This document shows, piece after piece, positions 18,701 to 52,972 of a stretch of 57,959 nt of DNA. The DNA is from an uncultured Bacteroidales bacterium (GTDB taxonomy: Bacteria; Bacteroidota; Bacteroidia; Bacteroidales; UBA4417). The stretch covers positions 1 through 57,959 of the forward strand of contig CAIWMA010000313.1 in NCBI GenBank assembly GCA_903913645.1, written 5' to 3'. Below the pieces are notes generated by a model. It was not told the DNA's origin. It searched no databases and saw only the letters and a program-made list of their open reading frames with translations. The position numbers and the translations under genes are program-made. Numbering within the stretch: position 1 is the stretch's first letter; the number at the start of each line of letters is the position of its first letter.

Positions 18701-18914
18701 CCATCTCTACCATGTTCCAGTCCATTTTTCTACCCTCTGCTGTGTATCCGTCGAATCGGAAATAAGGATATATCCGGCCCGGTGAAGCAACAGGATTAGG
18801 ATCGGAATAGGGATAGGAATTCAAAGATTGAGGCTTCTCCTGAATAATAGCATTTTGGGCGAAAGCGCCGGCAATTAAAATAAAGAAAATGGAGAAAAGG
18901 AGGTTCTTTTTCAT
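15747..18914 (-). CDS. DUF5107 and TPR-repeat secreted protein
   Basis: A 1055-residue secreted protein (signal peptide to FAQ near residue 20). The N-terminal half resembles DUF5107, a beta-sandwich related to aldose-epimerase and glycosidase-associated folds: YIKIYVSPQVGGKVWGAIEK, EFLYFNHAVKFRDVAMRG, GGVEFNFGLIGHAPSC and SYYHWTNAGIKV. From about residue 480 to 800 there are many TPR helices (YAKCLEKDPNYLPALTAMAN, AVETNPLEVPAYELLATLAR). Family members often sit in glycan-degradation loci; whether they bind sugar or catalyse is not settled. Same strand and close to both neighbouring hydrolase genes. Confidence 0.78.
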   Translation of the reverse strand: MKKNLLFSIFFILIAGAFAQNAIIQEKPQSLNSYPYSDPNPVASPGRIYPYFRFDGYTAEGRKMDWNMVEMENPYIKIYVSPQVGGKVWGAIEKSTGKEFLYFNHAVKFRDVAMRGAWTSGGVEFNFGLIGHAPSCSSPVDYLTRPNADGSISCFVGSTDLPSGTRWRVEINMPKDKAYFTTRSFWYNPTSLEQSYYHWTNAGIKVAGNLEYAYPGQYYLGHDGSNSPWPINKEGRDLSFYENNNFEGYKSYHVFGEYTGFYGGYWHDDEFGTGHYAAYDEKPGKKLWIWGLSRQGMIWENLLTDTDGQYTEIQSGRLFNQEATNSTLTPFKHRSFIPGGTDSWTEYWFPVKGTKGLKYGTPDGSLNLETKGDKIHLWYCPLAATNEKLKVFQDDKLLWEKQVSLVPMQLFTDSIQFNGNADKLKVVLGEGNILYNSDRNELKMSRPVEMPSDFDWNSIYGLYLQGKEWDKQRLWKDASVSYAKCLEKDPNYLPALTAMANLSIRSAEFENALKYTFKAISIDTYDPAANFAYGVANARLKKYTDAVDGFSIASASIEYRAASYVEISKLFMLQKQYKQAKDYALKAVETNPLEVPAYELLATLARLEGNRDEASKVLDQLEALDPLDHLIRFEQYLNNPSKATADAFTGMIRTELTHEVYLELAAWYLNLGLGKDLESLLNLAPDQPEILYWRAWLADKSSNKVLATALLQKANSGDPSLVFPYLQETIEPLTWAMENSTSWKPAYYLGLIYWNTNKTEKAKALFLKCGDTPDFYPFYLARVELLGSLDAKATEKDLQKAVSLAPDAWRAGLGLSKFYEKQKNYIKSKEVAANFFGKLPQNYYLGLNLAKQLSLNDEAEACVSLLAKLKVLPNEGATAGYHLWRESNLVVAMKAYSARNYKKALIFIAQSRTWPENLGVGKPYDVDERLPDFLESLCFKAKGNKKNVALLETKVMSYTQTKNYKPSGSTDLLSAWLLRKSGDELNASSLIENLDKLKPATKSTRWVDAMFSGNKGLAVSIGNEEDKIQTSDPYAPVEVQSDLSLLIKLSSIFDF

Positions 18915-19022
18915 CGCTTATTGCTTTTAAAGGGAATTCAAATTTACAAATCAATTAACTTCTCAATCAATGCATTTATTAGATCAAACAAAGAAATGTT
19001 TTTTTGTACCGGTCAATATTCA

Positions 19023-22000
19023 TCAATAGTTCAGTTTAACCGACACTTCTTTATTCGTAGATAATTTTGCAGTCTTAATCAAAATCATTCCCTTCTTTTC
19101 ATCCGGATTAAAATACCATCCTGAAACTGACTTATTAAAATCGTCCACTTTCCTGAATTTCTTAAGTTTAATTCCCTGTACCGTAAGGTTCTTTGGTAAA
19201 ATAGAACCATGAATCTGGAAAATATAAGTACGGTTCAGTATCCGTCCAACAAAATCACCTTTGGCAGCTGAAATGGATATTTCATTGATTTTGGTACCAT
19301 CAATATCCGAAAGTGCTTCAAATTGAGCTTTAGCAAATTTTCCCTGCCTGTAATCGCGGTTTGATCCTTCATCCTCGAACATTTCAAATTTAGCATCTGG
19401 TCCTGGATATATATCGAGGGTAAGCGTATCAGCCGGTTGCTGGTTGTCGTACTTCATTTGCTGGTACATTGGGATAACAGATCCGGCTTTAACGAAAAGC
19501 GGAAGTTTTTCAAGCGGCGCAGCATATCCGTTTAAAGTTGTTTTCCCAGTATAAATAGTGCCATCCCAGTAATCGAACCATTTGCCTGCGGGCAAATAAA
19601 TATTGTCCCTAACATTTGTATCACTATAAACCGGAGCCACCAGTAAATTTTTACCAAGCAAAAATTCATATTGTGTAGCTGTTCCCAGTACAACAGGATC
19701 ATTTGGATATTCGAGTACAAGTGCACGGACAGCTGGCGTCCCGGTTTCGTATGCTTCGTTGCATAAAGTATACATATAAGGTGTAAGCCTCAGTTTCAAA
19801 TCCAGGTATTTACGGTTAATTGAAGTATAGGGTTCGCCGTAAACATAGGGCTGTTTATCTTTTGGTGCCCATCCTGACATCGACATAAATACAGGTGTAA
19901 AACATTTCCATTGCAGGTCGCGGGTAAATGTTTTATCGCTTCCGCCAAAAATGCCATCCACATCGCCTGTCGCACAATTCTGTGCCGAAAGCCCTGAACC
20001 AATTACCGTAGGAATATGCCAGCGGATATAATCCCAGGTTCCTTTCTGATCTCCGGTCCACATCACGGTGTTGCGATGTGATCCTGCCCAGCCGCAAACC
20101 GACCAAACAAAACCCCGTGCATCACTGCTGTTCTCTATCCCGCTGTATGCAGCTTTGCAGCCATCAATAGCAAATTTATATCCTTCGCCGACCCAGGCAA
20201 CATCCAGTTTGCAGAGACGGCTGCCATATTCGCCAACTTCACGTGCTATTTTCTCAACCCCATTTTCGGTCCAAAGGCCGGTATGAAAACCCCTTTTACG
20301 CAATTCAACAACAACTGAATCGAGTTTTGTATAACCACAGCCGTATCCGTCGTTTGGTAAAATCCAGCCGCGGGGTATATTATTTTCAATATATTTATCA
20401 GCAATCAACGAGATAACATCCGGGGTTGTGCCGTTGTAACCGGTGGTATTTTTTCCTTTTGTTGCCCCCCGGTTATAACAGTTCGCATCGCCCATTCCCA
20501 AGGCCCAACGCGGCGGAAGAAATGGCTTTCCGGTAACATCGGTATAAGCATTCAGAATATCCTTCAAGGACTCACCGGCAAAATAATAGCAATCGAAACG
20601 AGCTTCAGAATGTATAAGCTTTATAGTATCGTTAAAGGCATATTCGCCTGGTGAATAGGTATTTCTTAAAGCACCGTATCCATTGGTGCTCATATAAAAA
20701 GGCGCAGGATTAGGAGCACCGCCATCTTCCCAGTTCCAGTCGATGCGCATCAAAATAGTTTTATCCCTGTGAGAAAACCTGCCGTTCTGCATTCCTCCCC
20801 CGTAGAAATATTCATTTGCACCCCGAGCCAGGTATTGAACCGTTTCTTTCCCGTAGGTCAGACTCTTTTTCTCTTCCCATACCAGTGTCTTGTTATCTGG
20901 TTTATACATCGCAAAGCGTAACGGATGCAAATACGCTCTCAGGGCAACTTTTGAGGTTGCCATCAGGTAATATCCACCCTCTTTCGTAAATTTCACATTC
21001 ACGTTTTCGTTTAGAGGATTTATAATTATATCATTACCGGCAGGATTTGTAAATTCTCCGTTGTACGACATCTGAATCCTGAAAATATCATCCCGGCAAA
21101 AATCAACCTCCACTTTAGCATGGTTGCAATCGAAAACAAACTTATTTCCCATGTTCCGGAAACCGGTAACTATTCCAAGTTCATAAGCTTTTGAGTACAA
21201 CTCCATGCGAAGCGTGTCGTTCTGCTTACGGTTATCTTCCTGCAGAGATGTATAAAACCTGATTTTATGAATCCCGTAATCGGTAAGATCGGCCGAGGGA
21301 AAAGCAACAACTACGGTATCTACAATTTGCAGAAAACTTTTCTCGGTGTACGGAACGGTAACTTTCAGAGCCGGCCTATTGTCAATTTCCAGGTAACAAT
21401 CGAATGGCTTTTTAACAGGTCCCGAACCCAGGTTAACAACATTGAATTTAAAAATATCCGCCTTGCTGAAGGCATTTCCGGTTTGGGGATGCGACACCAG
21501 TGCTGATGCTGCCAGATCGACATCAAGCGCTTCTGAAAGTTCGATATCATCAACCATCCAATACCATGCATATATGCCTCTCCAGTGAAAACGGAGGTAA
21601 ACTTTCGGCTGAAAAGCAGCAACTGAGGTGATGTTGAGTTCAACATTCATCGGGTTTGGGCAATCGGCTTCAGAAGCAATGCCATTGCGGACTTCATACT
21701 CTTTCCAATCAAGTCCGTTGGATGAAACGCCGACGAACAACCCACCATCGTTTCGCAGTTTTCCCCAGTCGTTCCACATGAAATTTTGCTGAAACTTAAG
21801 AACTACAGACCCTTTTTTCGAACAATCAATAGCAGAAGTCTGAAAATATGCATCCGGCCATATACCAGCCTTTTCCCATTTGCGATAGGCTTTCTCTACC
21901 CTGACACCGGCGCCGTATTGCATGTGAAATCCTCCGCTTTTGGAAGCCACAGGAGGTGCCTGCTGGTCACGGCCGTAGGATCCGGGGAATGGCTGGTTGG

Positions 22001-22175
22001 TACAATCCCAAAGAATGCTGCTGTCGTTCACTGCTTTGTTTATCCATCCTTCCGGGAGTTTTCCGGAAGAGAAATCTTCTTTCCAGAATAATTTGGAAGG
22101 AACGGAACTGTTGTTTTGTGCTAACACATTGATTGTCAAAATCAATATCGATGTTACCAGAAATATTTTGTTCAT
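19023..22175 (-). CDS. GH31 family glycosidase, alpha-N-acetylgalactosaminidase-like
   Basis: A 1050-residue secreted GH31 enzyme. After the signal peptide comes a jelly-roll module with a WYWMVDDIEL signature (about 30-215), then a GH31 N-domain and barrel: PRWALGMGDANCYNRG (555-570), RGWILPNDGYGCGYT (602-616), GLWTENGVEKIA (633-644), CKLDVAWVGEGYKF (655-668) and NTVMWTGDQKGTWDYIRW (702-719). Asp658 and Asp709 are the expected nucleophile and acid/base. The LDVAWVG motif replaces the usual DMNE of alpha-glucosidases and agrees with my recollection of the GH31 branch active on alpha-GalNAc (Tn antigen). With GH101 next door this fits O-glycan removal. GH31 is certain; GalNAc specificity is inferred. 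Confidence 0.88.
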   Translation of the reverse strand: MNKIFLVTSILILTINVLAQNNSSVPSKLFWKEDFSSGKLPEGWINKAVNDSSILWDCTNQPFPGSYGRDQQAPPVASKSGGFHMQYGAGVRVEKAYRKWEKAGIWPDAYFQTSAIDCSKKGSVVLKFQQNFMWNDWGKLRNDGGLFVGVSSNGLDWKEYEVRNGIASEADCPNPMNVELNITSVAAFQPKVYLRFHWRGIYAWYWMVDDIELSEALDVDLAASALVSHPQTGNAFSKADIFKFNVVNLGSGPVKKPFDCYLEIDNRPALKVTVPYTEKSFLQIVDTVVVAFPSADLTDYGIHKIRFYTSLQEDNRKQNDTLRMELYSKAYELGIVTGFRNMGNKFVFDCNHAKVEVDFCRDDIFRIQMSYNGEFTNPAGNDIIINPLNENVNVKFTKEGGYYLMATSKVALRAYLHPLRFAMYKPDNKTLVWEEKKSLTYGKETVQYLARGANEYFYGGGMQNGRFSHRDKTILMRIDWNWEDGGAPNPAPFYMSTNGYGALRNTYSPGEYAFNDTIKLIHSEARFDCYYFAGESLKDILNAYTDVTGKPFLPPRWALGMGDANCYNRGATKGKNTTGYNGTTPDVISLIADKYIENNIPRGWILPNDGYGCGYTKLDSVVVELRKRGFHTGLWTENGVEKIAREVGEYGSRLCKLDVAWVGEGYKFAIDGCKAAYSGIENSSDARGFVWSVCGWAGSHRNTVMWTGDQKGTWDYIRWHIPTVIGSGLSAQNCATGDVDGIFGGSDKTFTRDLQWKCFTPVFMSMSGWAPKDKQPYVYGEPYTSINRKYLDLKLRLTPYMYTLCNEAYETGTPAVRALVLEYPNDPVVLGTATQYEFLLGKNLLVAPVYSDTNVRDNIYLPAGKWFDYWDGTIYTGKTTLNGYAAPLEKLPLFVKAGSVIPMYQQMKYDNQQPADTLTLDIYPGPDAKFEMFEDEGSNRDYRQGKFAKAQFEALSDIDGTKINEISISAAKGDFVGRILNRTYIFQIHGSILPKNLTVQGIKLKKFRKVDDFNKSVSGWYFNPDEKKGMILIKTAKLSTNKEVSVKLNY

Positions 22176-40073: not shown

Positions 40074-40622
40074 TTACTCTGAAACAGGCGGTTCTTTTTC
40101 CAGTTGTGCACGGCACAGATTACAGATATTCACCTCTTTCTGATCAATATCTTCCACATAGGTGCTCGAACGCATTACACAGGCAGGTGTATGGCAATGA
40201 ATTAAGCCGAAAGTATGCCCAAGTTCGTGAATAACTTCCTTTGTAAATCGCTGAAGTAGCAGGTTTTCATCTGCCGGCATTCCATAGCTCTCGTTACTCA
40301 ACCTGTATTTTGATGCTACAGCCGACTGCCCGCCTAATTGCCCCTGTCCGAAAATAAAAGTAAGGATAGGAATATAGAGGTCAACAATAAATACTCCGAT
40401 GATTTTGGAATTCCCGTATCCAGTCTGGTTATCGACTACTTTCAACAGCTTATTTCCATTGTACTGCCTGCGGATAGGATCGTAAAACTCGCTTATATCA
40501 ACATGAGCTTCTCTAATAATCACTGAACTATTGAATTCATGAATAACAACTTCCGATACCTTTTCAAGAAATGATTTCTCGAAATGGCCAAAAGACAAAA
40601 TTGTTATTGTTTGAGCATTCAT
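40074..40622 (-). CDS. archaemetzincin-type zinc metalloprotease
   Basis: 182 residues, the usual size for the archaemetzincin (AMZ/AmzA) family. The extended zinc motif HELGHTFGLIHC (residues 132-143) is followed by Cys148, Met150 and the pair Cys167/Cys170 in CNLC, matching the family pattern that binds a catalytic and a second, Cys-held zinc. There is no signal peptide, so it is cytoplasmic. The natural substrate of the family is unknown. It is upstream of nothing obvious on its strand, with 194 bp to the regulator gene. Confidence 0.88.
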   Translation of the reverse strand: MNAQTITILSFGHFEKSFLEKVSEVVIHEFNSSVIIREAHVDISEFYDPIRRQYNGNKLLKVVDNQTGYGNSKIIGVFIVDLYIPILTFIFGQGQLGGQSAVASKYRLSNESYGMPADENLLLQRFTKEVIHELGHTFGLIHCHTPACVMRSSTYVEDIDQKEVNICNLCRAQLEKEPPVSE

Positions 40623-40816
40623 TCAGCGCCGGTCTGTGAATTCAGATGGAAATGATATTGTTGCAAATAGATGGCAAAAGATAAATTTTGAAAAGTTTCA
40701 CACACTGAAAGTGCAGATATCGCAGTTTTTTCATTTCAAAATACATTGAACCAACAATCTATATTTTTCTCGTCTTCAAATTCCGACAACCCAAATCTAA
40801 CATCCGAAATCTTACC

Positions 40817-42151
40817 TCAGGCTTTCAGCCCATATTTCCTGATCTTATTGTAGAGGGTTACGCGATCCACTTTTAAAGCATTTGCGGTGCGCGAAATGTT
40901 CCAGCTATATTTGTTCAGAATCTGAAGGATAAATGCTCTTTCGAAATCATCAAGACTCTCGACTGAACTATCAATTGTATCCTTACCAAAAGGCAAATCT
41001 TTCAGTACAATTTTCTTCCCGCTGCCTACCACTATTGCACGCTCTATCATATTCTCCAGTTCACGTATGTTGCCGGGAAACTTGTAGCCGGTGATACGTT
41101 TCAATGCTGCCGGCTCTATTGTAATAAGCGGCTTATTCATTGATGTACAGTACTTTTTGATAAAATATTCGACAAGCAAAGGAATATCTTCAATGCGCTC
41201 GCGCAATGGAGGAACATGAATATTCATTACATTAAGACGGTAGTACAGATCCTCACGAAAAGTTCCTTTTTCGACCATGCCTTTCAGATCGCGGTTGGTT
41301 GCACAGATCACCCTGAAATCGGACGATATCTCCTTGTTCCCTCCTACCCGAATAAATTTCTTTGTTTCCAGAACACGCAACAGTTCCACCTGCATCTTTT
41401 GCGAAATGGTGGCAATTTCATCAAGAAAAATAGTACCGCTGTCGGCCATCTCGAACCGGCCTTTACGGTTGTATAAAGCACCGGTAAATGCTCCTTTTTC
41501 GTGTCCGAAAAGTTCACTCTCAAGCAAACTTTCAGTCAGCGCACCACAATGTACACTAACCAACGGGTAGAATTTCCGAAGTGAATTAGCATGAATGGCC
41601 TTGGCTACCAATTCTTTTCCTGTACCGCTTTCACCTGAAATAATCACAGATGAATTTGTTGGAGCAACGCTTTCCACTTCCTTTAACACCTTTTTAATAG
41701 CATCGCTTTTGCCAATCAGATCTTCAACACTCTCTAAAGAATCAACCCTGTTCTTCAATGTTTCATTTTCATGTGTCAGTAGTACCTGTTTGGTGGCATT
41801 GCGGATGAGATGAGAAAGATCGTCGGGATCAAACGGTTTTGTCACATAATCGAAAGCACCTTCCTTCAAAGCTCTAACAGCTGTATCTACAGTGGCAAAA
41901 GCCGTCATAACAATGATAATAGAATCCTTATTCAGAGTTTTGATCCTTTGTAGAAGTTCCAGCCCGTCCATGCCCGGCATCTTGAGATCAGTAAGAATAA
42001 TATCAAACACATCCGATTCGAGTATTGACAACGCTTGTTTTGCATTCTCGGCACAAGCAACCTGAAATCCGTCTTCTGTGAACCAAAGGTTCAATGATTC
42101 CCTGACGGATTCTTCATCATCGACAATCAGTATCGAAATTTTCTTTTCCAT
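40817..42151 (-). CDS. sigma-54-dependent NtrC-family response regulator
   Basis: 444 residues in three parts. Receiver (1-120) with Asp55 in IILTDLKMPGMDG. AAA+ domain with Walker A GESGTGKELVAKAIH, the sigma-54 contact loop EKGAFTGAL, Walker B GTIFLDEIATIS and the sensor motif FRVICATNRDL. A Fis-type helix-turn-helix at the C-terminus (NKYSWNISRTANALKVDRVT). It begins 11 bp after the histidine kinase gene, so the two are a pair. It should activate sigma-54 promoters; the best target in view is the -24/-12 element at 48822-48838 before the redox operon. Confidence 0.93.
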   Translation of the reverse strand: MEKKISILIVDDEESVRESLNLWFTEDGFQVACAENAKQALSILESDVFDIILTDLKMPGMDGLELLQRIKTLNKDSIIIVMTAFATVDTAVRALKEGAFDYVTKPFDPDDLSHLIRNATKQVLLTHENETLKNRVDSLESVEDLIGKSDAIKKVLKEVESVAPTNSSVIISGESGTGKELVAKAIHANSLRKFYPLVSVHCGALTESLLESELFGHEKGAFTGALYNRKGRFEMADSGTIFLDEIATISQKMQVELLRVLETKKFIRVGGNKEISSDFRVICATNRDLKGMVEKGTFREDLYYRLNVMNIHVPPLRERIEDIPLLVEYFIKKYCTSMNKPLITIEPAALKRITGYKFPGNIRELENMIERAIVVGSGKKIVLKDLPFGKDTIDSSVESLDDFERAFILQILNKYSWNISRTANALKVDRVTLYNKIRKYGLKA

Positions 42152-42162
42152 AAATAGTCTCC

Positions 42163-43833
42163 TTAATTTCTGATTACAGGTAAAAGTATTGAAATTGTAG
42201 TACCATGGCCGGGTTCAGATTTAACCTGTATTTTCCCTTTATGACTTTGTATAATACCATGCACAATGGGCAGGCCTAGTCCAATGCCTCTTGCCTGCTG
42301 TTTTGTGGAGAAGAATGGCTCAAATATATGCGGTATGTCTTCTGCCGAAATCCCTATTCCATTATCGGATATTTCGAGTCTGATTGTATCCTGATCGGGA
42401 TTTGAAGTTTTTATCACGATTTCACCACCTTCAGTAACCGCTTCGGTAGAATTAACAAGCATTGCCACACAGGCTTGTTTTATCTGGTTAGGGCTGCAAT
42501 AAATCAAGTCCGATTTTGCTGTAAAGTCTGTTAAAAAACTGATATTGGCAATTTTAACAGGATGCGACATCAGGTCGTACGTTTCATGTAAAATTTCATG
42601 AAGATGTTTAGGTTCGAAATCTTCCTGGTCTTTTTTTGAAAAATCGAGTAATCCTTTAACTATATCGCCACACCGCTTTGTTTCGGCCTCAATCATTTTA
42701 AGATGTTTGAGCATAACCTCTTTCTTGGCATCCGTTAGGTCTGGATTACTCAGAAGTTTATGGACCAACTTGGTATAAACCAGGATTCCAGATAACGGAT
42801 TATTAATTTCATGTGCAACCGAAGATGACAATTTCCCAAGAGACGCAAGCCTCTCTATATGAATTAATTCAGTCTGAGCAGTCCCTAATTCCTCCGTTTT
42901 TTTCTGAACTTTATATTCAAGCTGCTGCGACCAGTTTTCGAGTTCAGTTGTTGCAGTCTGCAGATTATCAAGCATATCATTAAATGCAACTGAAACCATT
43001 CGCATATCATCCAGTTGGTTTGGCTTTATTTTCAATCTGGTACTTTTATCACCGCTTGATACAGCAATACTCGCTCTTATGAGTTCGCTCAATGGATTTT
43101 TTATTTCTTTTCTGGTAAATAGTACGAGAAATGAAGCAAGCAACAATGTGGTTAAAATAGCCAGCATGTAAAATTCAAGTGACGATTTATTAACAGCAAC
43201 ATCAAGATCTTTTAAGGGCACTTTAATTACCAGTGAACCAAGTATTTTATCCTTTGCTGCATGATAATGGCAGGAACTCTCGTAACAGGATTTTGAATTC
43301 AGAATTGGCGATCTGATTAGCAGATGCCTCTGCCCGCTAGGGCTCTTACTCATCTTGCATTCACTATCTGCATTAATGATTTTATAGGATTTCTCCTTCC
43401 CTGGAAACATAGTAGCCATGTTTTTGTGGCAACTTTTGCAGTTAGGATTAATGTCAGCTGCCGTATCGCTTGAAAACGAGGAATAAATAAGACTGTCATT
43501 GCTATCGTACATATTAACATCGTCAATACCAGGCAATGTATGAATCACATCAAGTGTATTCTGAAGTGCGCCTTCGTCGTTTTCCATCATCGAATGATAC
43601 AATGCTCCTTCAACAAGCGAGCCAACATTATTACCGCTTTGCAGGATAACTGTATTCAGGTACTGCTCGTATACTGATCGGAAAATAATACCAAATGAAA
43701 AAAACAGGAAGACAGATAAGAGAGCGATGATAAGAACTACCCGTCCGTAAATAGAACGCCCGAATCGCAAATACCGTCCAAAAGATTTGCCGTCTATTTT
43801 ATTACTGTCCTTTAATTTATGAAACATTTCCAT
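42163..43833 (-). CDS. membrane histidine kinase with c-type haem sensor motifs
   Basis: About 556 residues from ATG 43833. The frame opens at 43920, but that start is in the loop of a terminator hairpin. Numbering on the long frame: membrane helix 60-80, periplasmic sensor 85-245 with CKSCH (161-165, a CxxCH haem site) and CYESSCH (212-218, Cx4CH), second helix 250-268, HAMP-like 269-320, coiled coil, HisKA with His370 in SSVAHEINNPL, and HATPase with DNGIGI, FEPFFST and GIGLGL. It is likely a redox- or gas-sensing kinase that signals to the NtrC-type regulator downstream. Haem attachment is predicted, not shown. Confidence 0.9.
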   Translation of the reverse strand: MEMFHKLKDSNKIDGKSFGRYLRFGRSIYGRVVLIIALLSVFLFFSFGIIFRSVYEQYLNTVILQSGNNVGSLVEGALYHSMMENDEGALQNTLDVIHTLPGIDDVNMYDSNDSLIYSSFSSDTAADINPNCKSCHKNMATMFPGKEKSYKIINADSECKMSKSPSGQRHLLIRSPILNSKSCYESSCHYHAAKDKILGSLVIKVPLKDLDVAVNKSSLEFYMLAILTTLLLASFLVLFTRKEIKNPLSELIRASIAVSSGDKSTRLKIKPNQLDDMRMVSVAFNDMLDNLQTATTELENWSQQLEYKVQKKTEELGTAQTELIHIERLASLGKLSSSVAHEINNPLSGILVYTKLVHKLLSNPDLTDAKKEVMLKHLKMIEAETKRCGDIVKGLLDFSKKDQEDFEPKHLHEILHETYDLMSHPVKIANISFLTDFTAKSDLIYCSPNQIKQACVAMLVNSTEAVTEGGEIVIKTSNPDQDTIRLEISDNGIGISAEDIPHIFEPFFSTKQQARGIGLGLPIVHGIIQSHKGKIQVKSEPGHGTTISILLPVIRN

Positions 43834-43894
43834 AAGGCAATTTTTAAAGTATCGAATACTTATATGGCTGTTCGTATATATATCAACGCAATAT

Positions 43895-43933
43895 AATAAT
43901 AAAACTGATGAAAAATTCACCAGTTTTATTATT
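43895..43933 (-). terminator. perfect 13-bp hairpin between the gcvH-like and kinase genes
   Basis: Arms AATAATAAAACTG (43895-43907) and CAGTTTTATTATT (43921-43933) with a 13-nt loop. On the minus strand the second arm is itself T-rich, as in an intrinsic terminator. It ends 84 nt past the gcvH-like stop. It would reduce read-through into the kinase gene and rules against the upstream kinase start at 43920. Confidence 0.65.
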
Positions 43934-44017
43934 TTTTATAAATTTTCGACTAATTCGTTGTTTCAATCAAATTCATTAGCCATTTTAGGCTTTTGTCTGC
44001 ATGTTCAGTAGTTCCCT

Positions 44018-44731
44018 TTACGGATTTAAAAACTCTTTCTGGAAATCATACCACATTTCTACGGGTAATTCGGAAAGAGAATTATCTACTAGTTCGCCAC
44101 CATCCTGAAGCACATCTGTAGAATTTCCAGGCAAATGTTTTCCGAGGTTCATTGCCAGGAAATCTTTATACCGGTCCAGCTCTTTTTTTATCCAGATAGT
44201 AGCTTCATCGGCAAGGTACAATGAAGGTATTTCTGCAATCCAGTTTGTGGGTTTTAAACTATAAATCCACCCTTTCCCGTAAGGATCTTCGTTGAGCAAT
44301 GTATAGTTCTCATCCAATGCCGGGTTTGAGTCAATGACCATACCCGAAATAGGAGAAAATATTTGAAGCGTTTTCCCATTTTGATCTACTTCGGCCAATA
44401 ATTCTCCTTTGTTGATGCTTTCGCCGGGATTCTTCAAATGATGGACTTTCACCTCGCCGGTAATATGAAGCAGAAGGTCATCCAATCCAACCTTTGCATT
44501 GCCAGATTTTTCAAGGTAAGCCCAGGTGTGATTCCTGCTGTAAAAGATTCCCTGCTCAATTTTCAATATCCCAAGCGAAAGAATGCCCATGGCTTTTCGC
44601 ATCTGTTCTTTTCTCTTTACCTGCCGGTTCAATGAAATCCAGAAAGGAATGAGAAGCAAAAGGAAGGCTATGATTACCAGGTACTCAATACCCTTCGTTT
44701 CAAAAATATTAGTATAAGTGAATCCGTCCAT
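44018..44731 (-). CDS. membrane-anchored GcvH-like protein
   Basis: 237 residues. N-terminal membrane helix (about 15-34), then a glycine-cleavage-H-like barrel (about 62-165): FYSRNHTWAYLEKSGNAKVG, LLHITGEVKVHHLKNPGE and LNEDPYGKGWIYSLKP. At the lipoyl site the usual ESVKA reads DQNGK, so the Lys (120) is one place later than in GcvH and the normal position is Gly. A C-terminal tail VLQDGGELVDNS...WYDFQKEFL is shared with the fusion protein at 47105. No GcvP or GcvT is nearby. Probably part of the membrane redox module, possibly as a carrier arm; lipoylation is uncertain. Confidence 0.8.
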   Translation of the reverse strand: MDGFTYTNIFETKGIEYLVIIAFLLLLIPFWISLNRQVKRKEQMRKAMGILSLGILKIEQGIFYSRNHTWAYLEKSGNAKVGLDDLLLHITGEVKVHHLKNPGESINKGELLAEVDQNGKTLQIFSPISGMVIDSNPALDENYTLLNEDPYGKGWIYSLKPTNWIAEIPSLYLADEATIWIKKELDRYKDFLAMNLGKHLPGNSTDVLQDGGELVDNSLSELPVEMWYDFQKEFLNP

Positions 44732-44759
44732 GATTTATTAGTTTTTGTAATTAATTATT

Positions 44760-44830
44760 AATCTTGATAAGAATAAGGTATAGAGGCATGAAGGTTCAGT
44801 TTTATTGATGCTATTTACCAATCTTGATAA
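44760..44830. promoter_or_regulatory. 11-bp direct repeats upstream of the gcvH-like gene
   Basis: AATCTTGATAA occurs at 44760-44770 and again at 44820-44830, exactly 60 bp apart, within the 191-bp spacer between the NrfD-like and GcvH-like genes. Spacing in near-integral helical turns could suit a regulator. No other support. Confidence 0.3.
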
Positions 44831-44922
44831 AGGAAAGAAAACATAAACCTGTAACCAGTATTTACACTAATTGATCTGATGTCTGTTTCTATATTTCCTT
44901 TATACCTTTCTACAATTATTTT

Positions 44923-46191
44923 TTAAGCTCTCTGATGTTCCTTTCCAAATGCAGGTTGTTGTTGTTCTTTTTCTTCCTTAACCCAGTTAGGCGATTCACG
45001 CAAAACTGGCATGCGATTAACGACCCAACGGAATATCCAGATTTCAGTAAACAGAACAGTGAAAGTAACTACAAGTTCCATCCACGACGGGACATAACGA
45101 ACTGGCATATCCCACCTGAAACCAATTACTGTAACATTAAGCCTGTTCAACACTACTCCCACCATTGTAAGTATGGATGCCAAACGGATCAGGAAAACAC
45201 TATTTTTCCTGTAGCTGTAAAAATAGAGCATCATCGGCAACAATACAAAACCAATCATTTCCAATAAGTACCAGTGCCCCATTGGTGTATTGAGCAAATC
45301 CCAGTGTTTACCATGAATAAAAACAAGTAATTGCAGGAAAAAGTAAGCGAACATAGTGCCTGTACAAATTTTGGCCAGGCCATGAATAATGCCGTGTTCG
45401 GCCTTTTTGTTTTTATCACTGATTTGATTTGCAAACACTTTACCACTTATGGATCCTTCAAAAATCACCATCGAAAGTCCGGCAAAAATGCTGGAAACAA
45501 AAAACATGATAGGAATAAATTCGGAATACCAAAGCGGATGTATTTTTTCCTTTGCCATCAGAAAAAGTGCTCCTAATCCTGATTGATGAAGCGTGGATAG
45601 TGTAATCCCAAATATAACCGCTGCCAGCGTCATACCGGAAAGGATTTTGCGTGCCCGCCTTGCTCCAAGCCATTCCGCAATGGCAGGTGATATCTCAATT
45701 AGCTGAGCTATCATATAAAGCAGAAAATGCCATGCCACAAGAAACAATACTGAGCTTACGCCAAAATTGTTCCCTATAATAGGATTGATCACATTCCATG
45801 GGCGGCCCAAATCGAGTAGCAAAGCCCCAGCATAAAACAGGTAAGCGAGAAAACCGTTAAGTACCGTAACCCTGACAATGGACTGGTACTTTTTCATATT
45901 AAGGATATAGACCATAAAAGTTACCACGTATGCACCGCCTGCAAATGCAACACCAGTCACTACGTCAAATCCGATCCACAATCCCCAGGGAATTTCCTGC
46001 GAGAGATTGGTAATGGCACCAATGCCTTTCCAGAAACGAATGACTATCAGGAAAATGCCTAAAAGTATGATTGGTGTGGAAATGATATTAAAAGGGGTAA
46101 GCCATTTACCTCTTGGTTTCAATTCCCATAACAAGAATTTCCAGATGGGCTTCCCATCGTTGTCTGCCGAAATTATATGACCGCTATTCAT
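44923..46191 (-). CDS. NrfD/HybB-like quinone-interacting membrane subunit
   Basis: 422 residues with about ten membrane helices, matching the NrfD/PsrC family and closest in feel to HybB: WKFLLWELKPRGKWLTPFN, LSQEIPWGLWIGFDVVTGVA, FAGGAYVVTFMVYILNMKKY, LLDLGRPWNVINPIIGNNFG and the final MPVRYVPSWMELVVTFTVLF. Such subunits pass electrons between the quinone pool and a periplasmic Fe-S partner. Its ATG overlaps the end of the ferredoxin gene by 8 bp, which implies translational coupling and a complex. No catalytic subunit is encoded here. Confidence 0.9.
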   Translation of the reverse strand: MNSGHIISADNDGKPIWKFLLWELKPRGKWLTPFNIISTPIILLGIFLIVIRFWKGIGAITNLSQEIPWGLWIGFDVVTGVAFAGGAYVVTFMVYILNMKKYQSIVRVTVLNGFLAYLFYAGALLLDLGRPWNVINPIIGNNFGVSSVLFLVAWHFLLYMIAQLIEISPAIAEWLGARRARKILSGMTLAAVIFGITLSTLHQSGLGALFLMAKEKIHPLWYSEFIPIMFFVSSIFAGLSMVIFEGSISGKVFANQISDKNKKAEHGIIHGLAKICTGTMFAYFFLQLLVFIHGKHWDLLNTPMGHWYLLEMIGFVLLPMMLYFYSYRKNSVFLIRLASILTMVGVVLNRLNVTVIGFRWDMPVRYVPSWMELVVTFTVLFTEIWIFRWVVNRMPVLRESPNWVKEEKEQQQPAFGKEHQRA

Positions 46192-47053
46192 CGCTACTAT
46201 CGTTTGTATGGTTATCCTTTTTAGTTGACTGCTGAATACCTAATAAAAGCGCTGGAACCAGTACAAAAACACTTGGCACCGTATATAGAAATCCTTTGGT
46301 AAGCGCAGGGTACGATTCCGTTTGAACTTTTGTATTTAATCCAATTTCGTTAAATGGCACAGGTGAAATATATAACCAGGATGTTCCTCCGGCTTCCCGT
46401 TCACCATAAATCTGGTCGTAGTACAGGTCAGGCTTTTCAAACATTCGTCTCCTGGCTTCCTGTATTAATTCCCGGCGGGTCCCAAACATAAGTGCTTCAT
46501 TGGGACAATTATCAACACAGGCAGGAAGTTCCCCTTTTTTTACCCTGGTTTCGTAGCACATGGTGCATTTCTCAATTTTCGGATTTGCGCTGTGGAATTC
46601 AAACTTTGGAATATCGAAAGGACATGAAACCATGCAATAACGACAACCCATACATTTATCACTTCTCCAGATTACTGGCCCATCCTTAGTCTTTGTCATT
46701 GCCTGGGTAAGACAGGCAGCGGCACAGGCAGGTTCATTGCAGTGCATACATTGTGTTTTGGCATACACAATACCTTTCGATGTTTTATACTCATTAACAA
46801 CAGTGCGGTGTTTATCATCAGTTTTCCTCAAACCTTTGATTTCCTTGTTTGGAATTGGTTCGGGTAACCCGTTTGCTTCAGCACAATCGTATTCGCATCC
46901 ACGGCATCCTTTGCATCGGGCAGCATCATACAGAACGCCTCTGAACTCCGAAACACTTTTTGCTTTTGGTGCTGCATTCAGTTCCTTTCCAACTGCCAGT
47001 GTAAGTCCTGTGGCACCAATGAACTTAAAGAAGTCACGACGATGTAAATCCAT
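46184..47053 (-). CDS. Tat-exported four-cluster ferredoxin subunit, HybA-like
   Basis: 289 residues. The N-terminus HRRDFFKFIGATGLTLAVG has a twin-arginine signal, so it folds before export. Four Cys groups are visible: CKGCRGCEYDC, CMHCNEPACAAAC, CMGCRYCMVSC and CTMCYETRVKKGELPACVDNC, enough for four 4Fe-4S clusters. A C-terminal helix (FLYTVPSVFVLVPALLLGI) anchors it to the membrane, as in HybA. It overlaps the NrfD-like gene. It should relay electrons between the membrane quinone site and an unknown periplasmic partner. Confidence 0.92.
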   Translation of the reverse strand: MDLHRRDFFKFIGATGLTLAVGKELNAAPKAKSVSEFRGVLYDAARCKGCRGCEYDCAEANGLPEPIPNKEIKGLRKTDDKHRTVVNEYKTSKGIVYAKTQCMHCNEPACAAACLTQAMTKTKDGPVIWRSDKCMGCRYCMVSCPFDIPKFEFHSANPKIEKCTMCYETRVKKGELPACVDNCPNEALMFGTRRELIQEARRRMFEKPDLYYDQIYGEREAGGTSWLYISPVPFNEIGLNTKVQTESYPALTKGFLYTVPSVFVLVPALLLGIQQSTKKDNHTNDSSDE

Positions 47054-47104
47054 GTCTTATATTTTTAAGGATGAAGGTTTTAATTCGGAAGAGAAGAGTA
47101 GTTG

Positions 47105-48787
47105 CTATTTATAAATTTCGAGGAAGTTGGTTTGAAAATCGTCCCATACTTCTGGTCCGAAATCAGCCAGGACACCATCCTTAACAATACCGCCATCCTG
47201 CAGCACAACATGCGAGTATTCAAGACTATCGGGTTTAAGAGTAGCAGCGAGAAAATCTTTCATTCTGGAGAATTCAGTATTTATCCACTTTTTATACTTT
47301 TCTGCCATATCCATAAACTTTATTTCCTCGAACCAGTTTGAAGGCTCGATCCTGTAAATCCATCCTTCGGAATATGGCGAAGCATTGATCCTTGAGCCAT
47401 CCTCAGTAAGCGCTGAATTTTGTTGTTTTATAATTCCGGAAATAGGTGAGTATAAACTCAAACGCTTACCAAACTGAACTATAGAAAACAAGAGTTCCCC
47501 TTTTTTGACTTTTTCTCCTGGATTTCTCATTTCGACCCGAGTTAAGGGACCAGTAACATGTTGCAGGAAATCGTCAATTCCAATAGAAATATTTCCGTCC
47601 TTTTCCATAAAAGCCCAGCTATGGGATCTGTTAAAATATACGCCTTTTGGAACTTCTACAGAATTCTCGTTAAAACCAGTTAATGAATCATTAAAATCAG
47701 GGACAGCTATCGCTTGCTTTCTGTACTTTCTTACACCTGCACTCACAATCAAACCTAAGGTTATGAACATTGCAACTACCAACAACACTATTCCTGCATT
47801 GGAGGACTTTTCTACAGGCTGAATACTTATTGCAGCCACATTGAACTTTTCCAGTTGCGACTGACTTTCACTATTTGTTAAATTACAATACCCATTTGCA
47901 TTCAGATATTGTTGTCCCTCCGTAAGCACCCATGATAAAAATGCAATTTCAGATTCATTCGTAGGTTGAATTTTGCTTATTGCATATATATTACTATACA
48001 ACGATTTGGGATACTTCCCAATCCAAACTCCCCGAAGGAGTGTATTAGGATCACTATAAATATCTTCCATATAATCTATGGTACCATTCTCGTTTTTATC
48101 AATTGGCAACATTTTTATATCGGCAATAAAAGCCTGATTTCCCTGATTATACAAACTAACGACATTACAAAAACCAATAGCAAGTGGATCATTCTGTATC
48201 GCAAAAACCACCTCATCTTTAGTTCCAAAAGTAATTCCTGTTGCTGGAATCTGAACAGACTGCAAAAAATTTGCCACTCCTGATTTTACAGTTTCATCGT
48301 TAACAACATAAATATGTGCAGCTTTATTTTGATTATCTCCAAGTAAAGTTCCCCAATTCTGTTTTTCAGGACAATTTAAAAGCCGGGTAAACTTTTTCTG
48401 TGATACACCTTGACTCATCAATTGAGTCATGTAAGGATTTCCAGAATTAATAACCGGAACTATAACATCCCGGCCAATCACCATTTTCCAATTTGTTTTA
48501 TTAGTAATTGCTGCCTGTGATTGGCTTGAGATGAAACTTACGTTTTCGCCATCTCCCAGGTTAGCGCTTTTATCACTTGCACTAATAACTTTTATTTTTA
48601 CCTCAGGATTAAGGCTCGTATATTCATTGGCCCATTGCAAAGCCAATGAGTGCAGGTCGGGAGTGCAGGAAATTGCTATTGAACCCTTTTTCGGACCAGC
48701 ATTATTGTATGTAACATCCTGACTATTAGCTGAATTTAAAATCAACAGCATCAGAATTCCGGCGATTAAATAAATTGTTGTTTTCAT
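47105..48787 (-). CDS. PstS-like binding domain fused to a membrane helix and GcvH-like domain
   Basis: 560 residues and an unusual fusion. Signal peptide 1-22; periplasmic solute-binding domain of PstS type about 35-310 (KGSIAISCTPDLHSLALQWA, INSGNPYMTQLMSQGVS, LRGVWIGKYPKSLYSNIYAI); membrane helix 330-352; cytoplasmic-side GcvH-like barrel about 383-482 (YFNRSHSWAFMEKDGNISIG, YSEGWIYRIEPSNW) and tail VLQDGGIVKDG...WDDFQTNFL. The lipoyl-site segment reads VQFGKRLSLYSPISG, again with Lys (441) shifted by one and Gly at the usual site. First gene of the redox operon. No PstA, PstB or PstC gene is nearby, so phosphate uptake is unlikely. Which side each domain faces is inferred from the signal peptide and single helix. 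Confidence 0.85.
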   Translation of the reverse strand: MKTTIYLIAGILMLLILNSANSQDVTYNNAGPKKGSIAISCTPDLHSLALQWANEYTSLNPEVKIKVISASDKSANLGDGENVSFISSQSQAAITNKTNWKMVIGRDVIVPVINSGNPYMTQLMSQGVSQKKFTRLLNCPEKQNWGTLLGDNQNKAAHIYVVNDETVKSGVANFLQSVQIPATGITFGTKDEVVFAIQNDPLAIGFCNVVSLYNQGNQAFIADIKMLPIDKNENGTIDYMEDIYSDPNTLLRGVWIGKYPKSLYSNIYAISKIQPTNESEIAFLSWVLTEGQQYLNANGYCNLTNSESQSQLEKFNVAAISIQPVEKSSNAGIVLLVVAMFITLGLIVSAGVRKYRKQAIAVPDFNDSLTGFNENSVEVPKGVYFNRSHSWAFMEKDGNISIGIDDFLQHVTGPLTRVEMRNPGEKVKKGELLFSIVQFGKRLSLYSPISGIIKQQNSALTEDGSRINASPYSEGWIYRIEPSNWFEEIKFMDMAEKYKKWINTEFSRMKDFLAATLKPDSLEYSHVVLQDGGIVKDGVLADFGPEVWDDFQTNFLEIYK

Positions 48788-48821: not shown

Positions 48822-48838
48822 TCCAATTACAATGCCAA
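48822..48838 (-). promoter_or_regulatory. candidate sigma-54 (-24/-12) promoter of the redox operon
   Basis: On the minus strand TTGGCATTGTAATTGGA fits the sigma-54 consensus YTGGCACGRNNNTTGCW at the -24 TGGCA block, the spacing and the TTG of the -12 block. The key C of the -12 GC is G here, and the CG after TGGCA is TT. It lies 35-51 bp before the first ATG. Support comes from the sigma-54 activator encoded in the same cluster. Confidence 0.5.
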
Positions 48839-49203
48839 AGTTTTATCTTTCTGTATATCATATACTTACAATTATATCTGTATCTATTTTAAACATGGAT
48901 AGTGTTGAATATACTTACACTTCATTTATTAATCAACTACAGTATGCTATATATCAAATTGTTAAATAGTATTGTATATTTTATTTACACCTGTTGCATT
49001 TATCAACACTAATTAACTATTGGCTCTACTTTATAGTACTATAATAAATTAAAAAGTTAGTATAAAAAGTCAATACTCTTTGTATACTATTATGGAAAAG
49101 TTAAAAACTGCTTAACTTTTCTTTCACTAGTTTTAAATACTATCCAATAATTGCAGACAGTTACTACTATTAAGGGTTAATTAAGTTTGTTTTTTAGATG
49201 CTT
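48839..49203. other. AT-rich upstream region of the redox operon
   Basis: About 365 bp with no ORF. It is rich in TAGTAT/ATACTA words (for example TATAGTACTATA near 49033). It holds a perfect inverted repeat at 49095-49121. It could contain enhancer sites for the NtrC-type regulator, which usually bind 100-300 bp upstream. Confidence 0.45.
49095..49121. promoter_or_regulatory. perfect 10-bp inverted repeat, possible enhancer site
   Basis: GAAAAGTTAA (49095-49104) and TTAACTTTTC (49112-49121) around AAACTGC. It lies about 260 bp before the candidate sigma-54 promoter, a suitable distance for an activator binding site. Alternatively it is a terminator for the decayed gene at 49204, since that gene would be transcribed toward it. 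Confidence 0.4.
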
Positions 49204-49803: not shown

Positions 49804-51459
49804 TTATTGAGGCACTACTATGATCTGCATAAAAGTGCCATAAGGACCGCCCGCGCTTAACAACACATCAGCACCAGTAGTTGATCTGAATACTTTCATC
49901 TTGAAATTATAATTGCCCGGTCCAAGAGTCAAAATCCTTATACCGCTGTCGAAATCAAAAAATGTCAAATTGCCGTTCTCTGACAAAGTCTGCTTAGCAT
50001 ATACGGCAATGTTGTTTAATTCAATACTAAAGGTAAGGCCCACATTAGGACATGCGAAGCAACCGCTGTTTAGGCCGGATCCATGCATGGAGAGTATTAC
50101 TTTTGAAGATTGACTTAATACGATATTCTGATCCAGCCCGGGAAGATAAAAAATATTTGTGCCGGATGTGAGGGTGATATTGTTCGACATATCAAAACTG
50201 TAGATATTATTAAAAAGCTGATTAGTAGCTGAAGCCCAGGCAGGAACAGCTGTACTTCCATTACTCTGCAATACCTGGCCTGTAGTGCCGCTATTGCCGC
50301 TTAGGGTTACCGGAGTATTGATACCTATACGGCTGTTAACAGCATCGTAAGTAAAACCCCAGCCCGCAGGCCCACCATAAAAACCAATGTTTTGATTATT
50401 TTGTGCGCCAACAAAACCAAGCAAGGCGCTGTTATCTGCCTTGTATAACCACACACCTGAACCTCCACCTACCATATCAGTACTCCCGTTTTTTAATATA
50501 AGCCTTCCATTCAAACTCATTCCATCATAATTACCATTATTCAGGATACGCATCCGTTCAGTAAAACTGGCACTTGATCCGTACCCGAATGCAATATTGG
50601 CTGCTAATGCATCGCTATGTATTTGCAGCAATGCGTTTTGCACGCCAAAACCATAATGGTTGCCAGTGTTCCCATAAAGCGAAATCTTATCGCCTAATGC
50701 GTTAGCGAAGTTTAACGGGAAACCTGGTGTAGCCATGCCAATGCCCACAGAACCGCCATTATTAAAAATATTGCTGCTGTTTGTTATCCAGGCCGTTCCG
50801 TTCCAGAATGGAGTATTCCCCGCAGCAGTTCCTGGCGAGAGTAGGCCTGTTGCACCTGCAGCACCAGTTGCTCCTGTAGCACCTGTAGCACCAATCTTGC
50901 CTGTTGCGCCTGTGGCACCCATTGGGCCAGCCGGGCCGGCTAATCCTGTTGCCCCGGTTGGGCCGGTTAATCCGGTTGCACCAGTAGCTCCTTTGGTACC
51001 AGCAGGACCAGTTAATCCTATTGGGCCAGCAGGGCCAGTTAATCCTTGCGGCCCTGCCGGGCCTTGAGGGCCATTTGCTGAAAATAAGGCATAAGGAACA
51101 CTTAATAATTTACTTACTCCAGTAATATTATAGTTGGTTCCTCCGACAGGATCGGTTTCAGTTTTTATGGAATAGGTTCCGTTTGCCCAATTAATTGTCG
51201 AAAAAGTGCCCGAAACAATAGTGCCGGAACCAATTTCAAATGTTACAAGTCCATTGGCGTTTGTGGATGTTGTTTGCGTTTCTACATATACAGGAGTTGT
51301 TCCCTGTAAAATACTTATTTTCATTCCGACAGAATGATTTTTAACAAGAGTATTTCCGGCATCCCTTATCACTGCCTGGTAACTCATCTTTTGAGGTGCC
51401 TGGGCGAAAGTACTACATGCCAACAAAAGGACAGCAAGCATTGCAATTAACTTTTTCAT
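49804..51459 (-). CDS. collagen-like repeat surface protein
   Basis: 551 residues. Signal peptide to CSTFAQ (about 19). Residues 20-125 hold the Bacteroidota module [20 protein letters not shown], shared with the gene at 51683. Residues 130-207 are an uninterrupted Gly-X-Y tract ([19 protein letters not shown] then many GATGATG units). The rest resembles tail-fibre and T4-gp-like heads ([37 protein letters not shown]) with a C-terminal beta domain ending FMQIIVVPQ. Probably a trimeric secreted fibre. The collagen tract may vary in length between strains. Confidence 0.8.
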
Positions 51460-51682: not shown

Positions 51683-52972
51683 TTATTCTTCATAAGTTAC
51701 AAGTATTTTAAATGGTTTCGAAACAATAGTTGCAGAATTTCCACTTTTTAGCCAAATCCATATATCAGTAGACGTAACATAATATGTAAATTCATACCCG
51801 GGATTAAACGTATATGATGAAGGGACATCATATCCTTCAGAAGCATATTGAACCAGGACATTCACCGCTAAAATTTTAGCACTGTTTAATCCATGTGCAA
51901 TATTTATTTGTGCTCCTTGTTCAGAACCGGTTGTTCCCATTAGCTTTTTCATTTTAATTGCCGGGGCATCAGTACCCAATTTGGTTGCTCCATTCACTTC
52001 CAGTTTCGTGGTCGGAGTGGTAGTACCTATTCCCACATTGCCATTGTTGACTACTGTTAATTTAGGGCCTGTATTCGTAGTTAAATGAACTGATCCTGTG
52101 GCATTAGCACCACCGGTACCGAAATCAACATCATCAGGATTTCCGGCAAAGCTCCCAATATACCCTTTAGCAACTCCGTTTTCGGAAAAGTAAATCCAAC
52201 TTCCATCTGGCCCATCAAAATTGGCAATTTTTCCCGCTGATGATTTAACGTGTAAAGTAGCGTCAGGAGTTGTTGTTCCAATACCAACATTGCCATTGTT
52301 GATTACTGTTAATTTAGGTGAATCATTTGTTGTTAAATGAACTGCACCTGAATTGCCTGAATAAGTCCCAAAATCAACATCTTCAGGATTTCCGGCATAG
52401 CTTCCAATATATCCTCTTTGAACTCCATTTTCAGAAAACGTTACCCACAAACTATTCCCACCATCAAAAGTGGCAATATTAGCATCCGCCGATGTAACAT
52501 TTAATTTAGTGTATGGAGTAAGTGTTCCGATTCCAACATTTCCTGAATTATTATTTATACCATACCCATTAGCCGACCATTGATTGTCGCCGCTGCTCAA
52601 TGCATAGGGTACGCTAAGCAACTGGCTTGTTCCACTAATAGTATAACTGGTTCCTCCGGTCGGATCGGTCTCGGTTTCTACATTATACGTTCCACTTGAC
52701 CAATTGATTGTTGAAAAACTGCCGGAAACAACAGTTCCACCGCCTATTTCGAGGGTTACAAGCCCATTGGCATTGGTTGTTATGGATTGGGTTTCTACAT
52801 AAACAGGTGTTACTCCCTGCAAAATACTTATTTTCATTCCTACTGCATGATTTTTAACAAGTGCATTTGCTGCATCCCTGATCACAGCCTGGTAACTCAT
52901 TTTTTGTGGTGCCTGGGCGAAAACACAAACAGTTAGTAATATAGCAACTAAAACAGTAAATATCTTTCTCAT
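51683..52972 (-). CDS. tail-fibre-like repeat surface protein
   Basis: 429 residues. Signal peptide to VCVFAQ, then the module [20 protein letters not shown] (about 22-125). Next come repeated units of about 75 residues starting NVGIGT(L/T)TPYTKL or TPDATLH, each with FDGGNSLWVTFSENGVQRGY or FDGPDGSWIYFSENGVAKGY and a DVDFGT...VHLTTN strand. The C-terminal head is AIKMKKLMGTTGSEQGAQ to KPFKILVTYEE. It starts 4 bp after the T9SS gene stop, so they form an operon. The layout is that of a trimeric fibre. Its C-terminus has a decayed paralog at 49204. Confidence 0.75.
   Translation of the reverse strand: MRKIFTVLVAILLTVCVFAQAPQKMSYQAVIRDAANALVKNHAVGMKISILQGVTPVYVETQSITTNANGLVTLEIGGGTVVSGSFSTINWSSGTYNVETETDPTGGTSYTISGTSQLLSVPYALSSGDNQWSANGYGINNNSGNVGIGTLTPYTKLNVTSADANIATFDGGNSLWVTFSENGVQRGYIGSYAGNPEDVDFGTYSGNSGAVHLTTNDSPKLTVINNGNVGIGTTTPDATLHVKSSAGKIANFDGPDGSWIYFSENGVAKGYIGSFAGNPDDVDFGTGGANATGSVHLTTNTGPKLTVVNNGNVGIGTTTPTTKLEVNGATKLGTDAPAIKMKKLMGTTGSEQGAQINIAHGLNSAKILAVNVLVQYASEGYDVPSSYTFNPGYEFTYYVTSTDIWIWLKSGNSATIVSKPFKILVTYEE

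Follow-up and report, generated by a model that had tools for sequence, protein, structure and literature searches.

A conserved Bacteroidales operon combining a two-heme sensor kinase, an HmcB/HmcC-like pair and membrane-anchored GcvH-fold proteins

Introduction

Outside a few models, it is largely open how anaerobes monitor the redox state of the respiratory chain and select an electron pathway. In an uncultured Bacteroidales bacterium (assembly GCA_903913645.1, contig CAIWMA010000313.1), we analyzed a stretch of 57,959 nucleotides, hereafter called the window, in which four neighboring genes encode a four-cluster ferredoxin, an NrfD-family membrane protein and two membrane-anchored proteins with the fold of GcvH (the H-protein of glycine cleavage), one of them fused to a PstS-like domain. 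What would such a redox pair do with no catalytic enzyme beside it, and what would GcvH-like arms contribute? The initial annotation regarded the pair as HybA/HybB-like and proposed that the GcvH arms replace the catalytic subunit as dithiol carriers in a quinone-linked relay. As described below, the four genes belong to a longer, conserved operon with a two-heme sensor kinase, and by analogy with Geobacter-type loci we see about an even chance that it constitutes a self-inducing, redox-responsive respiratory unit in which the GcvH folds serve as adaptors.

Results

The operon and its conservation

The four genes are indeed located on the minus strand at the positions first assigned to them, and the 8-bp overlap between the ferredoxin and NrfD genes corresponds to 46184-46191. 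The operon proposed from them is real but was ended too early: the four genes are the upstream part of a seven-gene operon (window 40074-48787, minus strand), and a sensor histidine kinase, a sigma-54 response regulator and an M54 peptidase had been omitted (Table 1). Among the seven products, heme-c motifs were found only in the kinase. No catalytic oxidoreductase was found among 18 scanned open reading frames of the window, and the one canonical gcvH of the genome is on a different contig.

Table 1. Features of the operon in window coordinates
Feature	Position	Strand	Basis or remark
PstS-like periplasmic domain, transmembrane segment and GcvH-fold cytoplasmic domain, 560 amino acids	47105..48787	-	Pfam, folds, topology
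HmcB/HybA-like four-cluster ferredoxin, exported by twin-arginine translocation (Tat)	46184..47053	-	Twin-arginine start, family scores
HmcC/HybB-like NrfD-family membrane protein, probably quinone-reactive	44923..46191	-	NrfD 2.3e-15
Transmembrane segment and GcvH-fold cytoplasmic arm, 237 amino acids	44018..44731	-	GCV_H 6e-22
Sensor histidine kinase, periplasmic Cache/PAS-like domain with CX2CH and CX4CH	42163..43920	-	
NtrC-type sigma-54 response regulator; GAFTGA and receiver Asp pattern intact	40817..42151	-	
M54 (archaemetzincin-type) metallopeptidase, HExxHxxGxxHCX4CXM-X16-CXXC	40074..40622	-	Pfam M54; 3' of regulator in relatives
Sigma-54-type promoter TGGCAT-N5-TTGG	48823..48837	-	35 nt 5' of first ATG
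Putative activator site TGT-N7-TTCAACA, upstream of operon	48903..48919	-	

When the 237-amino-acid GcvH protein was used as a query against 395 genomes of the phylum, 40 stretches were mapped, all of them picked by their GcvH match; HmcB or HmcC was present in 37 of the 40, and these 37 included 32 with the kinase and 21 with the sigma-54 regulator. A gene for a protein of about 180 amino acids often followed the regulator on its 3' side, and the copy in locus L034 was assigned by Pfam to Peptidase M54. The sensor domain was too variable for its alignment to be used in a scan of a larger collection, and an HmcC alignment was therefore searched against 84,980 species. From 149 relatives we kept the 80 nearest to HmcC, which are not an unbiased sample, and counted 78 of their loci, excluding L137 and L140, in which no HmcC gene was called. 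Most are from Bacteroidales/Prolixibacteraceae, and further lineages include Neomarinimicrobiota, Calditrichota, Ignavibacteria, Schekmanbacteria, Acidobacteria, Syntrophaceae, Desulfobulbaceae and others. The complete operon occurs in Bacteroidota, Neomarinimicrobiota, Calditrichota and deltaproteobacterial records, and also in the cultured Draconibacterium, Sunxiuqinia and Maribellus.

Within 7.5 kb of HmcC, GcvH was found in 75 of the 78 loci and the kinase in 57; the three loci with no GcvH in that range (L131, L139 and L146) are Acidobacteria records. In the 45 loci with at least 3.5 kb of sequence upstream and at least 5.5 kb downstream, GcvH was always present (45/45), and kinase, regulator and M54 peptidase occurred together in 40. 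In the genomes of the five exceptions (L083, L117, L132, L133 and L153), a two-heme kinase is encoded at another place; that of the L153 genome, at L236, is longer and has none of the operon neighbors. Across 119 related genomes, furthermore, the two-heme kinase was found at a strong score in 22 (a weak match in G485 was left out), HmcC of the operon type in 18 (the distant G456 and G503 were left out), and both in 17. All of the 22 kinase genomes have the PstS-GcvH gene or a GcvH-bearing piece by our manual assignment (pieces only in G402, G403 and G448), and just one further genome, the 70% complete G426, has PstS-GcvH without the kinase. Fisher p values for the co-occurrence range from 1e-15 to 1e-23, with shared ancestry ignored.

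An Hmc-like pair with no classical catalytic subunit

While the pair was first described as HybA/HybB-like, it is nearer to HmcB/HmcC, which are the best NCBIfam matches of the ferredoxin and the NrfD subunit (324.5 and 397.8 bits, vs 227.7 and 239.8 for HybA and HybB). These scores nonetheless stay below the equivalog cut-offs of HmcB (420) and HmcC (550), and the cut-offs of HybA/HybB are not reached either. The Hmc complex of Desulfovibrio contains the 16-heme cytochrome HmcA and further subunits, whereas neither HmcA nor any other Hmc subunit was found among the seven operon products. Escherichia coli hydrogenase-2 shares with the operon the two folds of HybA/HybB and their pairing, but the hydrogenase genes are absent from the operon. 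A link of the HmcB/HmcC-like pair (HmcBC) to quinone, as the initial annotation had supposed, is probable.

Is a catalytic subunit then encoded next to the conserved cluster in other genomes? Gene runs were built around the 78 loci with a 350-base gap rule, some of them ending at contig ends, and the 32 unassigned adjacent genes of at least 250 amino acids were examined with Pfam. No molybdenum, NiFe or comparable oxidoreductase was found among them; seven of the 32 matched no Pfam family. The adjacent genes did include an octaheme cytochrome (PF11783) at L138 and, downstream at L152, an 11-heme/b561 protein, and variant loci have a 4-, 5- or 13-heme cytochrome beside HmcBC and the kinase. As a positive control, the more distant HmcBC pairs of L239 and L240 adjoin a molybdopterin oxidoreductase, and GcvH is absent from those stretches. 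The arrangement first observed, a ferredoxin/NrfD pair accompanied by GcvH-like proteins and lacking a classical catalytic subunit, is thus conserved, as far as could be seen in runs of which some are cut by contig ends.

GcvH-fold arms and the PstS-like domain

The product of the first gene matches PF01597 (GCV_H) at 4.9e-23 and PBP_like_2 at 1.2e-4, the latter below its cut-off. Its AlphaFold model (mean predicted local distance difference test score, pLDDT, 80.3; predicted template-modeling score, pTM, 0.51) shows a membrane helix between a PstS-like domain and an H-protein domain. In a Foldseek search the PstS-like domain matched 4jwo (E 6e-15) and has a periplasmic-binding-protein fold, and the GcvH domain superimposes on the E. 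coli H-protein (3ab9) with a template-modeling score of 0.95 at 1.2 A. The likeness to GcvH is thus one of fold. Both window proteins score 63.3 and 71.1 bits against TIGR00527, below its equivalog cut-off of 115.85; unlike the glycine-cleavage protein, moreover, the operon arms are membrane-anchored, end in a C-terminal DGG...W..F..FL tail and have no gcvP or gcvT adjacent.

At the aligned position of the lipoyl lysine, only 9 of 222 arms (a tally that includes near-identical loci) have Lys and 141 have Gly, whereas Lys was found in all four controls, namely the genome's own GcvH and three GcvH or GcvH-like proteins. The window's fusion protein has no Lys at this position. One position further on, 139 of the 222 arms have Lys and 35 have Arg. 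Lys and Arg residues are commoner after the transmembrane segment than before it in 175 of 185 membrane-anchored arms (equal in 7, reversed in 3), which places GcvH on the cytoplasmic side, opposite to the Tat-exported ferredoxin. Independently of this bias, 24 proteins in which GcvH is joined to a receiver domain, 23 of them with the phospho-acceptor Asp pattern and three confirmed by Pfam, also point to the cytoplasm.

These data bear on the proposal that GcvH arms act as dithiol carriers in place of the catalytic subunit of a HybAB-type module. The GcvH fold itself is well supported, the runs contain no classical catalytic subunit, and the shifted lysine is invariant in the fusion clade, all of which would suit a carrier. 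The usual lipoyl position is, however, something other than Lys in 213 of 222 arms, GcvH and HmcB are on opposite sides of the membrane, GcvH is kept at loci without HmcBC, and GcvH is found fused to receiver domains. We therefore rejected this part of the initial annotation, and a carrier role appears very improbable.

The PstS-like domain resembles PstS in fold, and an EF-hand-like DxNxNGxxDxxE loop, kept in 43 of 50 sequences, is common to it and to stand-alone homologues in Bacteroidales. Those homologues (L297-L300) have GxGxG and R[SA]DxxGA segments, which we take from PstS to be the oxyanion-binding site, whereas the window domain and eight aligned fusions have neither segment and are fused to a transmembrane segment and GcvH. 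Phosphate sensing, which we considered as a function, is weakened by the loss of these conserved segments. The stand-alone homologue at L300 adjoins an ATP-binding cassette permease and ATPase, and that at L299 two genes for proteins with multiple transmembrane segments. Taken together, the lost residues, the topology and the fusions suggest that both folds, apparently worn down and re-used, may work as adaptors.

Other forms of GcvH were also encountered. A soluble GcvH with a C-x12-C-x5-C-x2-C motif was seen in 28 proteins, at many loci outside the window's group; in these proteins, L037:6549-7361 being one, the motif is N-terminal (CIWxxAGxxxYKLCDxxFxCxxC) and is possibly a metal or Fe-S site. 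The receiver-GcvH proteins at L283:10966-11826 and L051:8667-10653 are response regulators with GcvH as the output domain, and their neighbors are genes for 16-, 11- and 9-heme cytochromes and for a 13-heme cytochrome, respectively.

A two-heme sensor kinase

The kinase, whose start is probably the ATG at 43833 or one downstream, has intact kinase motifs, and its CX2CH and CX4CH heme motifs are invariant in 35 of 35 kinases. Both exact patterns recur in 56 of 58 further kinase matches; L151 has CX5CH, and the match in L142 is partial. The sensor domain (window 43105-43752) gave a model of moderate quality (pLDDT 76.5, pTM 0.63), with which WalK-type Cache domains were found first and the Geobacter heme sensor GSU0935 (3b42, E 1.1e-4) was among eight matches below 0.001. 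By sequence, the domain matched no solved chain and no Pfam family at E 0.01, and it is hence not PF11845.

This sensor, whose PAS/Cache-like periplasmic domain contains two CX2-4CH motifs, is of the type of GSU0591 and GSU0599, for which two such motifs are described (PMC8396549). A second motif is likewise known in Anaeromyxobacter sensors (PMC3831638), and the potentials of GSU0582 and GSU0935 are given as -156 and -251 mV (PMC8396549). GSU0582, GSU0935 and the DUF3365 heme-Cache sensors share with the operon kinase the periplasmic PAS/Cache-like fold and a c-type heme motif, whereas the operon sensor has two motifs and no match to PF11845. Heme would presumably be bound at these motifs, and redox state would be the signal.

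Heme might alternatively bind nitric oxide, in which case the operon would serve nitrosative stress or denitrification. Single-heme c Cache domains fused to signaling modules do bind this gas (PMC12889525), and the available text of that paper makes no mention of GcvH, NrfD or diheme proteins. The window sensor, however, has two motifs and falls outside PF11845, and none of the 32 scanned adjacent genes matched a nitric oxide reductase; a nitric-oxide response is hence quite unlikely in our view. As a separate observation, one operon copy (L238:10512-13851, genome G431) has two two-heme kinase genes in tandem, followed by two M54 genes.

Regulator, promoter and M54 peptidase

The regulator has the receiver Asp, the GAFTGA motif and a Fis-type helix-turn-helix, rpoN is present in the genome, and a sigma-54-type promoter precedes the operon. 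Of 51 orthologous loci, 42 have the pattern TGGCAY-N5-TTG[AGC] no more than 150 nt before the first ATG, against a mean of 0.07 in 100 shuffles; this count is not fully blind, since the TTGA/TTGG variant was noticed by eye in the sequences later tested. At spacings of 3, 4, 6 and 7 the pattern was absent from all 51 upstream regions. When only the canonical TTGC form was allowed, 2 of the 51 reached the top score (0.1 expected); among 34 operons of other lineages, this form scored at least 10 in 8 (0.07 expected). A separate sigma-54 promoter before the kinase was also considered and dismissed (0 of 58).

Also, the upstream regions of the 51 loci contain 91 TTCAACA sites, and the putative activator half-site GTGTTGAA occurs in 34 of the 51 (1.5 expected). 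The site in the window differs from the commonest form and is missed by the strict pattern, which hit 10 places in the window's genome, the operon not among them, with 5 in the backward control. The combined activator and promoter pattern hit 48 places in 33 of 99 genomes (10 in the backward control); its one place in the window's genome is the operon. By coordinates, 6 or more of these 48 places are directly 5' of a PstS-GcvH gene (G000, G401, G405, G416, G426 and G431). The regulator would presumably act on the operon's own promoter, and we propose no wider regulon.

The window peptidase matches Pfam M54 at 1.4e-22. The archaemetzincin motif is described as HEXXHXXGXXHCX4CXMX17CXXC (PMC3427221); HExxHxxGxxH was found in 49 of 51 sequences and the exact X17 spacing in none, the window protein having X16.

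Geobacter-type loci and cytochromes

The nearest analogue that we noticed is the GSU0591-GSU0599 region of Geobacter sulfurreducens, which comprises cbcBA, the 12-heme GSU0592, two-heme sensors and a sigma-54 regulator, GSU0598, called BccR. Loci of this type resemble the operon in grouping homologous two-heme sensors with a sigma-54 regulator and a quinone oxidoreductase of the inner membrane; they differ in that the quinone module is a 7-heme cytochrome c with b561 instead of an Fe-S protein with NrfD, and in that the genes are on both strands. The Desulfobulbaceae locus L153 comes from genome G499, and the sensor domain is present in 104 of 297 genomes in the phylum of G499. There, loci L273-L276 contain a two-heme kinase, a sigma-54 regulator, a 7-heme cytochrome and cytochrome b561, and a 12-heme cytochrome and a kinase-less two-heme sensor were called in three of the four; at L274 a 274-amino-acid sensor protein, absent from the gene calls, was located by the sensor-domain search. 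In L277 and L278, HmcB/HmcC stand where CbcBA would be expected. No GcvH or PstS-GcvH protein was found in L273-L278. As a side observation, the kinase-less sensor beside the CbcBA-like genes in L273, L275 and L276 is GSU0591-like and might be a partner of the kinase or a decoy.

HmcBC and CbcBA thus look interchangeable beside this type of sensor. CbcBA functions in respiration near -0.2 V, being induced in the absence of better electron acceptors (PMC12307469, PMC10553843).

HmcBC, a cytochrome with 13 CXXCH motifs, the kinase and receiver-GcvH occur together at a group of loci that we call type B (L049, L051, L055, L057, L063, L065-L067 and L073), several of which adjoin multiheme conduits. 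Genes for cytochrome c assembly are present in the window's genome, as are multiheme cytochromes, among them a 7-heme and b561 pair. This CbcBA-like pair (L303:8082-9682, contig C380), possibly a second quinone oxidoreductase, precedes a NapC/NirT-type protein with 6 hemes and one more 6-heme protein, and other multiheme cytochromes with 5 to 7 CXXCH motifs were seen at L301 and L302 (contigs C325 and C587).

Surroundings of the operon in the window

A polysaccharide/mucin-type utilization cluster, unrelated to the operon, occupies 4495-22175 with genes for SusD-like, TonB receptor, GH101 endo-alpha-N-acetylgalactosaminidase, GH123, DUF5107/tetratricopeptide-repeat and GH31 proteins. Upstream of the operon and on the same strand, 49804-51459 encodes a protein that includes a stretch of collagen-like repeats, and a secreted protein of similar appearance is encoded beside it (51683-52972); an AT-rich gap of about 1 kb separates them from the operon.

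Discussion

The operon can be read as a self-inducing respiratory unit, and the apparent interchange of HmcBC with CbcBA is the main reason for choosing this mechanism. The two-heme Cache-type domain of the kinase would read the redox state of the periplasm or the quinone pool, and the kinase would then phosphorylate the sigma-54 regulator and thereby turn on the sigma-54 promoter of the operon. HmcC in the membrane and HmcB outside may form an alternative quinol-oxidizing pair, from which electrons would pass to c-type cytochromes that other parts of the genome encode; we infer this direction of flow. The PstS-GcvH fusion and the shorter GcvH protein, instead of being carriers, might be transmembrane and cytoplasmic adaptors tying together the sensor, the regulator and, where present, HmcBC, with the M54 peptidase as an associated protease.

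Several observations weigh against this scheme. PstS-GcvH is followed by kinase, regulator and M54 peptidase with no HmcB/HmcC between them at L227 (same genus), L228, L229 and L235; no HmcC was found when the genomes of L227, L228 and L229 were searched, while that of L235 has an HmcBC module elsewhere (L133). HmcBC alone therefore cannot account for the system. Conversely, L232, L233 and L234 have kinase, regulator and M54 peptidase with no adjacent GcvH gene, and the PstS-GcvH/HmcBC module is elsewhere in their genomes (L083, L117 and L132); although they co-occur in genomes, the modules can thus be unlinked. In the first set, five of the 37 stretches with HmcB or HmcC have no kinase within the stretch examined. 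Only four of 20 mapped loci in the G499 phylum (L280, L283, L284 and L289) have GcvH, meaning that two-heme kinases often do without it, and L273-L276 are matched to the Geobacter type by layout only. The -12 element in the window's group is TTGA/TTGG and not TTGC. Finally, the lysine next to the lipoyl position is invariant in the PstS-GcvH fusions (55/55), and modification of the arms at this shifted residue, though unlikely, is conceivable.

The same gene set might instead form a signal-input complex, in which HmcC/HmcB passes quinol electrons straight to the kinase hemes for purposes other than energy and the GcvH arms provide a cytoplasmic frame. The kinase is the sole product of the window operon with heme-c motifs, HmcBC and the kinase appear to be under one promoter, and the multiheme cytochromes of the variant loci stand beside both; the kinase is kept, on the other hand, at loci without HmcBC, the HmcBC module is away from the kinase in some genomes, and other multiheme cytochromes of the genome could take the electrons. 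We regard such a complex as possible, if rather doubtful. A further, unlikely reading combines two proposals: the retired H-protein and PstS folds would represent a new class of transmembrane signaling adaptor, connected to the two-heme kinase and exposing its PstS shell outside and its GcvH shell in the cytoplasm, and HmcC/HmcB would be the electron input of that kinase, for signaling and not energy.

In a literature search of partial coverage, no description of this gene cluster was found, and the combinations GcvH-like with NrfD, GcvH with HmcC, archaemetzincin with two-component, and glycine cleavage with histidine kinase, NrfD and multiheme gave no match. The membrane-anchored proteins built from the H-protein and PstS folds seem to have an undescribed role. 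Returning to the self-inducing respiratory unit, a widespread operon that is apparently self-regulated by a recognizable promoter links a heme sensor to a quinone module, and it offers a testable context for the re-used GcvH and PstS domains and for a bacterial M54 peptidase.

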